Below are positions 33,624-43,025 of a DNA stretch of 43,025 bases, one piece after another. The notes beneath the pieces were generated by a model, which was not told where the DNA came from, did not search any database, and saw only the letters and a program-made list of their open reading frames with translations. Every line of letters begins with the position of its first letter. The stretch's first letter is position 1. Source of the stretch: Candidatus Tayloriibacteriota bacterium. GTDB taxonomy: Bacteria > Patescibacteriota > Minisyncoccia > Phycocordibacterales > PALSA-1337. The translations under genes and the position numbers were made by a program. The stretch covers positions 303,441 through 346,465 of the forward strand of contig PLXZ01000004.1 of assembly GCA_003151615.1 (NCBI GenBank), written 5' to 3'.

Positions 33624-35030
33624 ATGAAATTGAAACTACCAAATGTAACCCTTCTAGGAGTTGACTGCGTCAATGTCGAACGTCTCCAACGAGCAATGGA
33701 TGTGTGCCAAAAAGACATAGACTTCGGCGCAGTAAAATTATTAACCTCTTTACCAACAGATGACAAGCATCTGGTAAAAATACCTCACATTGGAAGCGTT
33801 CAGGAGTATTCAAGATTTTGCGTAGAGGAGCTGGTGAAGTATGTTGATACAGATTATGTGCTATTGGTTCAGTATGACGGCTTTATTCTTAATCCTAGTG
33901 CTTGGGCGGATGAATTTCTAAAATACGACTATATAGGTGCCCCTTGGCTTGTTGCTAATTGGTCTATAAGAGACTTCAATTTTCCTACACATCTTCTTGG
34001 AACAGAGGTGGTTGGAAACGGTGGATTTTCTCTACGAAGTAAAAAATTTCTAGAAGTATCGGCGAAGCTTATGCGTGAGGGAAAAATTCCACAGATTCAC
34101 CCTGAGGATGTATCATTGTGTGTATGGCATAAGGATCTGTTGGATGCTGAAGGTGTATTGATTGCTCCGGTTGAATTAGCAAGACGATTCAGTATCGAAA
34201 AAGATGATGACGCGGATGTTTATGATACACAGTTTGGTTTCCATGGATTTTCCTGGACGAATATTGATACGTGGATTGATAAGCATCCCGAGTATCCATT
34301 GATAGTGGACGACTATAGAAAAGCAAGATTATCCAGGCTTCATCGAATACTGACGCGAACACGTGAGCAGGCTCTTACCAACGCCCAAAAATTTTTTCAA
34401 GATAAAGCTATTGAAGCGCATGCGTTTGGCTCTGTTGCAAGACGTGATTCTGATCCGTATAGTGACCTTGATGTGTGGTTCACCTTTAAAGATACTGACA
34501 TTGAGGATGTGCTCGAAAAACGTCTGAACTATTATTCACAAATAGGTGAGATTATTCATGTTTGTGAACCGCCACAAAATAGTCCGGTAAATGGAATTCA
34601 TTCGTTCGTCTTATATAAAACATACGCTGGTCTATTGCAGGTTGATTTTTATCTATGCCCGGAATCATCTTCGTTTGTCACCGAAGACAGCAAAAAACTA
34701 TTTGGTAACATAAAACTTCCTATCGGAAAATTAGGTCTCAACCCACAAAAGATTTCAGTCCCTGATTCCTACCGTATTGATTTCATTATTACCTTTATCT
34801 TCATTGCAATAAAAAATCTCAAACGAAATGATGATAACTCCCTACATCAGTTACTGAGTGAATATAAAAATCTCAGTGAGCGATACAGCATCACGGTTGA
34901 ACCGATGACTGATAAAGAAAATAGTTTCGCTACTTTAAGGCAGATTATTACTAATGTGGCTAAAGTTGCTGACACGAAACAACAAGTCGTGTTAACTAAA
35001 ATTAGCGAATTCATCGATCAAGTCGAATAA
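33624..35030 (+). CDS. DUF5672 glycosyltransferase-like domain fused to a nucleotidyltransferase
   Basis: 468 aa. Residues about 1-225 match DUF5672, a GT-like domain: VKYVDTDYVLLVQYDGFILN, DEFLKYDYIGAPW, VGNGGFSLRSKKFL, HPEDVSLCVWH. Residues about 250-380 are a Pol-beta-type nucleotidyltransferase: HAFGSVARRDSDPYSDLDVWF has the GSxxR...SDxD metal site, and a third acidic residue may be in LLQVDFYL. The rest is helical (about 390-468). The first half may add a sugar and the second transfer a nucleotide. Standalone versions of each are common, but I do not recall this fusion. It lies 2 nt after the PL14-like gene in one AT-rich cassette. Confidence 0.8.
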   Translation: MKLKLPNVTLLGVDCVNVERLQRAMDVCQKDIDFGAVKLLTSLPTDDKHLVKIPHIGSVQEYSRFCVEELVKYVDTDYVLLVQYDGFILNPSAWADEFLKYDYIGAPWLVANWSIRDFNFPTHLLGTEVVGNGGFSLRSKKFLEVSAKLMREGKIPQIHPEDVSLCVWHKDLLDAEGVLIAPVELARRFSIEKDDDADVYDTQFGFHGFSWTNIDTWIDKHPEYPLIVDDYRKARLSRLHRILTRTREQALTNAQKFFQDKAIEAHAFGSVARRDSDPYSDLDVWFTFKDTDIEDVLEKRLNYYSQIGEIIHVCEPPQNSPVNGIHSFVLYKTYAGLLQVDFYLCPESSSFVTEDSKKLFGNIKLPIGKLGLNPQKISVPDSYRIDFIITFIFIAIKNLKRNDDNSLHQLLSEYKNLSERYSITVEPMTDKENSFATLRQIITNVAKVADTKQQVVLTKISEFIDQVE

Positions 35031-35082: not shown

Positions 35083-35189
35083 CAAAATAACTCTCTTGAA
35101 AGGAACTCTCGGAAGACACGAAGGTGTCTGAGAGTGAGGTAACTTTTCAGTAGAAGAGTATGCCGTTTCCTTAAGAGAGCGTTATTTTG
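35083..35189 (-). ncRNA. Structured RNA element after rpoD (copy 1 of a two-copy motif)
   Basis: A long outer stem (CAAAATAAC with GTTATTTTG, CTCTCTT with AAGAGAG, AAGGAA with TTCCTT) encloses a 70-nt core (35102-35171). The core has two hairpins: ACTCTC..GAGAGT with inner AGACAC-GAAG-GTGTCT, and ACTTTTC-AGTA-GAAGAGT extended by GGT/GCC. The core differs at only 3 of 70 positions from the copy at 40328-40397, while the outer stems are unrelated in sequence. It starts 15 nt after the rpoD stop, so the minus strand is the likely transcript. The basal A/T pairs resemble a terminator with a structured insert in its loop. I do not recognise the family. Confidence 0.65.
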
Positions 35190-35203: not shown

Positions 35204-36400
35204 TTAGTAGTTCCGCAATCTATTAATCTTCTCGTGCTGTCGAATCTTCTCATACGCTTTTGCTTCAATCTGGCGGATGCGTTCGCGGGTGACGGCGAAT
35301 TCCTTGCCTACTTCTTCGAGAGTTCGAGTAACGCCTGTTCCATCCAAACCGCAGCGCATTTCCAAAATCTTGCGCTCTTTCGGAGAAAGCTCGTTCAGAA
35401 TTTCCTTCACCTGGTCGCCCAAAATGCGGCGTGAGGATTCCTGATCCGGTGACAAAATTTTATCGTCCGACAAGAAATCACCGAGAGTCGATTTGCCGTC
35501 GTCGGAATCGTCGCCGACCGGACTTTCCAATGAAACAACATCCTGATCGATTTTTTCGATATTGTAGATTTTATCGACATCAATGCCCATTTCCGTGGCA
35601 ATTTCCTCGGGCAACGGATCACGCCCCAAATCCTGGGTCAAACGGCGAAGAACCTGCTTGTATTTGGCAATCGTTTCAACCATATGCACAGGAACGCGGA
35701 TCGTTCGCGACTGGTCAGCCAACGCACGCGTAATAGCCTGGCGAATCCACCAGGTGGCATATGTCGAGAATTTATAGCCCTTTGTCCAGTCGAATTTATC
35801 GACGGCCTTGAACAAACCGAGGTTTCCTTCCTGAATGAGGTCAAGTAAAGTCAGATCGGGCGAGCGTCCCACGTATTTTTTGGCGATCGAAACAACGAGA
35901 CGCAGGTTGGCGCGGGCGAGCAGATTTTTTGCTTCCTTGTCCCCTGCCGCAATTCGTTTTGCGAGCTCCTTTTCCATCGAACCGGGAATGAGCGGATACT
36001 GTCCGATTTCCTTCAGATACATCTGGATCGAATCGTATGAAGAATCACTGCGCGAACCGTAGCTGTATTTTTTTGCATGCGTCGGTTCCGGTTCGACTTC
36101 GAGTAAACCTCCACCTTCCAAAACGTCGATACCAGCCGTCGACAATTTGCCGTACAAATCGTCAAGAAACGTAATATCAGTTTCGATGTTCGGGAACTCC
36201 TTCAAAATTTCGTCGTATGTGACAAAACCGCGCTCGCGGCCCTTGACCATGAGCTTGCCGGACTTCGTCTCAAACTCCTTATTCTTGGCCTTTTTTTGAG
36301 GTGAAAGTTTACCTTTTCCGGCTTTCGTTTTTTTCTGTTTAGCCGGTCTCGACTTCGCTTTTACTTTTGGCTTTATTTTTTTGTGTTTTTTTGTGGGCAT
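35204..36400 (-). CDS. rpoD: Primary sigma factor of RNA polymerase (sigma-70)
   Basis: 398 aa. A very Lys-rich N-terminus (about 1-45) is followed by a region 1.1-like segment, then region 1.2 ([13 protein letters not shown]), regions 2.1-2.4 ([54 protein letters not shown]), region 3 ([20 protein letters not shown]) and region 4 with the -35-binding HTH ([19 protein letters not shown]). It directs core polymerase to housekeeping promoters. Its intact region 2 agrees with the TATAAT-type -10 boxes seen here. It starts 12 nt after dnaG, the classic dnaG-rpoD order, and AT-rich DNA just before the ATG could give an extra start. The stop is followed directly by the structured RNA element. Confidence 0.97.
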
Positions 36401-40301: not shown

Positions 40302-40422
40302 CAAAACCACCGATGACATGTTGGAGAGGAACTCTCGGAAGACACGAAGGTGTCTGAGAGTGAGGCAACTCTTCAGCAGAAGAGTATGCCGTTTCCTCGA
40401 AAACATGTCATCGGCGGTTTTG
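40302..40422 (-). ncRNA. Structured RNA element after rpoC (copy 2 of a two-copy motif)
   Basis: The 70-nt core (40328-40397) matches copy 1 at 67 of 70 positions. The outer stem is different in sequence (CAAAACC and GGTTTTG at the base; GATGACATGTT and AACATGTCATC above) but pairs equally well. The three core differences fall in the second hairpin: one in its loop, one turning a U:G into a C:G pair and one turning GGT/GCC into GGC/GCC. It begins 9 nt after the rpoC stop, so minus-strand transcription is likely, with the basal A/T pairs as a possible terminator. Not recognised as a known family. Confidence 0.68.
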
Positions 40423-40431
40423 ATGTACTAC

Positions 40432-43025
<2,594 letters not shown>

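Follow-up and report, generated by a model that had tools for sequence, protein, structure and literature searches.

A dispersed palindromic repeat with a conserved Y-shaped core follows rpoD, rpoC and other genes in a Patescibacteria genome

The window analysed here is a 43,025-nt stretch of DNA from a Candidatus Tayloriibacteriota genome (labelled G000; 923 kb, 5 contigs), in which a structured palindrome lies close to the 3' ends of both rpoD and rpoC (Table 1). The first half of the open reading frame on the other side of copy 1 contains a DUF5672 domain, and the second half looks nucleotidyltransferase-like by eye. The original prediction had described a core repeated with 67/70 identity 3' of the two polymerase genes and nowhere else in the window, each copy starting 9–15 nt past a stop codon and enclosed by a long stem with A-rich and T-rich feet. 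Both places were right, the core identity was measured at 70/74, and the covariance model matched just these two copies in the window. We found that the outer stems end ~13 nt (rpoD) and ~9 nt (rpoC) from the stop codons, and that A-rich and T-rich feet are present at both copies. The plus strand, antisense to rpoD and rpoC, is the better-folding strand of both: copy 1 folds at -46.6 kcal/mol (z -6.7) and copy 2 at -72.2 kcal/mol (z -11.2), with no shuffled sequence folding as well in either case. In each fold a longer outer stem carries a three-way junction, and the Y-shaped core is made up of a P1 of the GAGGA/TCCTC type, a P2 of CTCTC-GGA-hairpin-GAGAG, and a P3 of GGCAAC-hairpin-GTATGCC.

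Table 1. Coordinates of the two Y-repeat copies and the neighbouring polymerase genes in the window.
Feature	Positions	Strand	Remarks
Copy 1, whole palindrome	35083..35189	+	between convergent 3' ends of ORF 33624-35030 (+) and rpoD (35204-36400, -)
Copy 1, conserved Y-shaped core	35098..35171	+	70/74 identity with copy 2
Copy 1, arm P2	35105..35135	+	CTCTC / GAGAG, GGA bulge, GAAG-loop hairpin
Copy 1, arm P3	35138..35164	+	
Copy 2, whole palindrome	40302..40422	+	directly 3' of rpoC (40432-43011, -); outer stem AAAACCACCGATGACATGTT / AACATGTCATCGGCGGTTTT
Copy 2, conserved Y-shaped core	40324..40397	+	
Copy 2, arm P2	40331..40361	+	
Copy 2, arm P3	40364..40390	+	
rpoD	35204..36400	-	neighbour, outside the element; identity by NCBIfam
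rpoC	40432..43011	-	3' part within the window; neighbour, outside the element; identity by NCBIfam

BLAST of the genome returned six copies of this element, hereafter the Y repeat. A covariance-model scan of practically the whole genome, reaching to within 837 bases of the end of contig 5, found 13 copies, each above 37 bits, and nothing weaker up to an E-value of 0.1; the description as a two-copy RNA therefore holds inside the window and fails genome-wide. Models were built from nine copies and then from 75 copies, the first matching 111 of 297 genomes of the order and the second 39 of 381 genomes of the phylum at E 1e-4. Copy numbers per genome in these two scans are lower bounds, because 11–14 candidates were scored per genome. 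A strict core pattern found 27 stretches in ~85,000 named genomes; those with a named group came from Zambryskibacteria, Yonathbacteria, Kaiserbacteria, Nomurabacteria and Peribacteria, plus a single Lachnoclostridium match that we take as chance, while the remainder are titled merely "uncultured bacterium" or "bacterium". The same pattern was absent from all of IMG/VR, and viral carriage was rejected on this basis. The search of CPR genomes and Rfam proposed with the original prediction thus matched many Patescibacteria genomes and no Rfam family: for the window and the copies in 20 loci, Rfam release 15 gave no match at the gathering score, and the sub-threshold matches were to eukaryotic families only. 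With nothing above that cut-off, we rejected a known Rfam RNA, and no account of such a family turned up in the literature searched on Patescibacteria/CPR palindromic repeats, MITEs and structured RNAs.

Copies usually resemble others of their own genome most closely. For 42 of 54 copies, the nearest relative was another copy of the same genome, and core identity was 0.73 within genomes vs 0.57 between genomes. One relative, G014, is particularly rich in copies (15 in 239 kb). Arrangements resembling BIME dimers, with copies close together and oppositely oriented, were seen at G130:C4:55017-55230, G196:C37:34956-35164 and G507:C65:1221-1465, and a row of partial, decayed copies adjoins a full copy in the congeneric sister genome G001 (C47; L056 3292-3500). 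Divergent relatives of the repeat were also observed next to tRNA genes (L014 1503, L015 1451, L016 1486, L021 1439); in these, one arm repeats the sequence from the tRNA T-loop to the 3' end, resembling an attachment-site duplication.

All 13 copies in G000 are intergenic, and ten of them lie within 45 nt of a gene 3' end, compared with 21.6% of possible intergenic placements (p 3e-5; genes predicted by a simple longest-ORF rule). The 3' ends concerned are those of rpoD, rpoC, nusG, lepA, secY, ftsH, RNase J, mrdA and rpsA, and copies also occur on the 5' side of prfA, dnaB and a murG-like glycosyltransferase gene. A/T feet are found at the rpoD, rpoC and rpsA copies and are lacking at most others; the nusG, secY, ftsH, RNase J and mrdA copies have no T-tract. 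Certain copies lie between co-directional genes. Across all genomes sampled, the modelled strand was antisense to the adjacent gene 3' end in 46 of 68 cases and sense in 22 (p 0.005, with the copies non-independent). The rpsA end carries a copy in four genomes (G000, G001, G070, G150), and orthologous rpsA and recA sites are occupied in both G070 and G150, which vertical inheritance would also explain.

The association with two RNA polymerase genes, which drew attention to the locus, recurs in the family and is not exclusive. Among the 17 family genomes searched, a copy follows rpoD in five (G000, G004, G005, G009, G014) and rpoC in four (G000, G004, G005, G014). For G000, the probability of finding copies at two or more of four rpo genes is 0.001, before correction for looking at many gene sets. 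In G001, a plain terminator follows rpoC and nothing follows rpoD. When we checked whether the other copies in G000 also follow polymerase genes, 11 of the 13 were found to adjoin other genes. Given the absence of rpo copies in G001, the dense distribution in G014 and the shared rpsA ends, it is the ends of core operons that seem favoured, not polymerase as such.

The structure is supported by covariation. In 119 distinct copies, 92.3% of pair cells hold standard pairs, and the covariation score was 0.789 vs 0.202 for shuffled and 0.11–0.14 for slid partners, a score that leans towards the structure because the alignment was fitted to it. A nine-copy MAFFT alignment gave 0.545 vs 0.197. G-U and A-C mismatches were about equal in the core, with no clear G-U excess, whereas the outer stem had 59 G-U vs 29 A-C under a rule blind to G-U. 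RNA-level selection on the modelled strand is therefore possible for the stem only, where the excess hints that one strand is selected as RNA.

In relatives of G000, the repeat also lies in frame within proteins; G000 itself has no such case among its 13 copies. Reading the translations for gene names, we identified in-frame copies in UvrB (G324, G342, G277), DnaE (G021, G028, G030, G257), LigA (G007), RecJ (G057) and TsaD (G246, G342, with a truncated copy in G324), and MutY of G223 may have a copy near its N-terminus. Shorter, element-free proteins at the corresponding sites were found for UvrB (G082), TsaD (G082, G277, G302), RecJ (G239) and DnaE (G023, G026). At two protein sites the core lies in opposite orientations between genomes (L304 vs L299 in TsaD, L126 vs L129 in UvrB), which suggests either repeated insertion or flipping, the outcome expected of recombination between the long inverted arms. 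The UvrB hinge that takes the Y element also holds unrelated palindromic repeats of the CCCTTCCCCTTGCGAAGGGGAAGGG type in congeners (L128, L130, G208, G159), and is a hot spot for in-frame palindromes. DnaE offers a comparable case: in many genomes belonging to a single genus, the variable loop flanked by NES.SQFTV and IRFG is occupied by Y elements or by other palindromes (L285, L277, L292, L294, L284, L293).

The outer stem differs from copy to copy and remains complementary within each. Past the edge of the model, the stem continues for 10.4 further bp on average with its own partner (mode 12–15), against 1.5 bp when the partner is taken from a different copy of that genome and 0.7 bp when it comes from another genome. 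Two groups of recent copies (L077/L079/L085 and L068/L073) have arms in common, and their differences are compensated, i.e. paired. Subsets of copies in G070 and G014 have conserved blocks beyond the variable stem. The plain rpoC terminator of G001 has a stem (AAAACCGC/GCGGTTTT) similar to the outer stem in G000, which fits insertion into a pre-existing hairpin. In UvrB of G324, the native right flank TTGGACTACCCA is mirrored on the left by TGGGTAGTCCAA, which lies inside the inserted part and is absent from the element-free length in G082; in RecJ of G057, native GCGAAA is mirrored by TTTCGC across the element. The LigA and DnaE hinges are too variable for their native flanks to be judged.

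We searched for a candidate mobiliser among genomes rich and poor in the element; the poor set includes G180, in which the first model detects one copy, and dropping this genome changes nothing. A Y1 transposase was present in 17 of 30 element-rich vs 13 of 22 element-poor genomes, showing no excess, and Y1_Tnp was absent from G000, G057, G070, G117, G121, G134, G186, G223, G251, G281, G289, G312 and G318. Reverse transcriptase was present in 15 of 28 element-rich vs 8 of 21 element-poor genomes, and a retroelement driven by this enzyme was rejected for want of co-occurrence. G000 has two reverse transcriptase loci (C5:42621-43232 and C5:74481-75135), one of them interrupted by an internal stop. 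For the Y repeat, we saw no transposition event, junction or mobilising enzyme, nor, by eye, any fixed tetranucleotide, such as an unpaired GTAG or CGTC tag, beside the stem in the listed copies, whose outer arms differ.

Several explanations would assign these copies a function at their sites. Feedback on sigma and beta' synthesis by a structured RNA in the 3' UTR, as originally suggested, would account for both window copies lying 3' of polymerase genes, for the recurrence at rpoD and rpoC ends with its low probability in G000, and for the G-U excess in the outer stem. We consider it very improbable, given the large majority of G000 copies at other genes, the lack of copies at rpoC and rpoD in G001, a modelled strand antisense to both genes, balanced G-U and A-C counts in the core, and in-frame copies within unrelated proteins; a regulatory RNA specific to polymerase genes and in sense orientation was rejected on the first and third of these grounds. 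A wider proposal is that the copies are elaborate terminators or protectors of mRNA 3' ends that selection maintains where highly expressed genes end, with inheritance mainly vertical. Here the preference for gene 3' ends, the A/T feet at rpoC, rpoD and rpsA, the recurrence at rpsA, recA and rpo ends and the compensated stem changes all fit, and the recurrence at rpoD, rpoC and rpsA exceeds random scatter, which we counted against a mobile repeat. This proposal still appears improbable, since the T-tract is missing at most G000 copies, copies lie between co-directional genes or, in relatives, within proteins, presence among congeners is patchy, and copies cluster within genomes. The structure, the site 3' of genes and the terminator-like feet of the original prediction are real.

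Other proposals concern how the element moves. A classical REP mobilised by a RAYT, a Y1 tyrosine transposase, would share with published REPs (PMC3733652) a palindromic form, intergenic sites 3' of genes and intragenic copies in repair genes. It is very improbable in view of the missing Y1_Tnp in G000 and the 12 further genomes listed above, the lack of an excess in element-rich genomes, and the lack of a fixed tag beside the stem. For the site-specific stem, three origins could be considered: insertion into hairpins, inverted copying of the flank, and drift with compensation of arms that belong to the element. If insertion copied its flank, with ~6–15 bp of target DNA duplicated in inverted form by snap-back synthesis or off-centre hairpin opening, the site-specific outer stems would be explained, as would the mirrored flanks in UvrB of G324 and RecJ of G057 and the 12–15 bp mode of own-stem extension. 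We regard this as possible but unlikely; recent copies of one genome have arms in common, conserved blocks lie beyond the variable stem in G070 and G014 subsets, the G001 rpoC terminator is consistent with a hairpin already in place, and the LigA and DnaE hinges do not allow a judgement. On the first two observations, we rejected the view that inverted target duplication alone gave rise to the stem. Because recent copies in one genome share arms, the outer arms are partly the element's own, and we favour element-owned drift with compensation as the general process, plus inverted copying or template switching at stem ends. Flank copying is in any case a refinement of the mobile-repeat reading rather than its opposite. 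A bolder version, to which we give a small chance, is a new class of Patescibacteria mobile hairpin with no recognisable transposase, in which an enzyme recognises the Y core and the stem is rewritten at each site by inverted flank copying or templated correction. If true, such a stem would discard its sequence yet keep its complementarity.

The reading we favour is the mobile palindromic repeat that the original prediction had offered as its alternative. The Y repeat is very probably a non-autonomous dispersed palindromic repeat of ~110–170 bp, REP/RPE/YPAL-like, with a conserved Y core on a long stem. We infer mobile spread from the multiple copies, covariation, enrichment next to stop codons, in-frame copies, presence and absence among relatives, and likeness within genomes. 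The element may spread via an intermediate, either single-stranded or a hairpin, on which enzymes of the host or enzymes acting in trans would work, and would persist where it does no harm, immediately past stop codons and within variable protein loops. A stem with A/T feet that has landed as at rpoC and rpoD could end transcription, and a landed stem could shield mRNA 3' ends. From their position and A/T feet, the rpoC and rpoD copies themselves probably serve as a strong, possibly bidirectional terminator hairpin. The outer stem, at least partly the element's own, probably drifts under hairpin-templated correction and selection for pairing. Very small as they are, Patescibacteria genomes nonetheless carry this widespread repeat at core gene ends, and it appears to have made its way, in frame, into essential proteins of replication and repair. 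Its always-paired, copy-specific stem would preserve a natural trace of the making, correction or selection of long palindromes. With its patchy distribution and no transposase or reverse transcriptase associated with it, the repeat lends itself to a test of what mobilises it.

Comparisons with known systems place the Y repeat near several families. REPs lie mostly 3' of coding regions, with intragenic copies in replication and repair genes, and uvrB of R. conorii carries REPs (PMC3733652). The Y repeat has similar sites, but GTAG/CGTC-tagged REPs are 20–40 bp with an end tag and the GTAG types are tied to RAYTs, whereas the Y repeat is a 74-nt Y core inside 110–170 bp with no Y1 transposase association. 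As regards MITEs, the inverted outer arms are site-specific, and we saw no consistent direct duplication, GAAA at RecJ of G057 being the single instance. SPRITE of Streptococcus pneumoniae is a dispersed terminator-like repeat (PMC10969869), to which the Y repeat is likened by description. YPAL/RU-2 of Yersinia is a structured mobile repeat of similar kind (~168 bp) whose targets span or adjoin dyad symmetry (PMC2229807); it has target-site duplications of 3–26 bp, while none is established for the Y repeat. Finally, the RPE of Rickettsia are ~100–150 bp palindromes, both intergenic and in frame within conserved genes (PMC2229807, PMC10969869), a likeness again drawn from description. The Y repeat differs from RPE in occurring in another phylum and in having a conserved three-way-junction core whose supporting stem varies while staying complementary, an architecture that is new within the REP/RPE kind.
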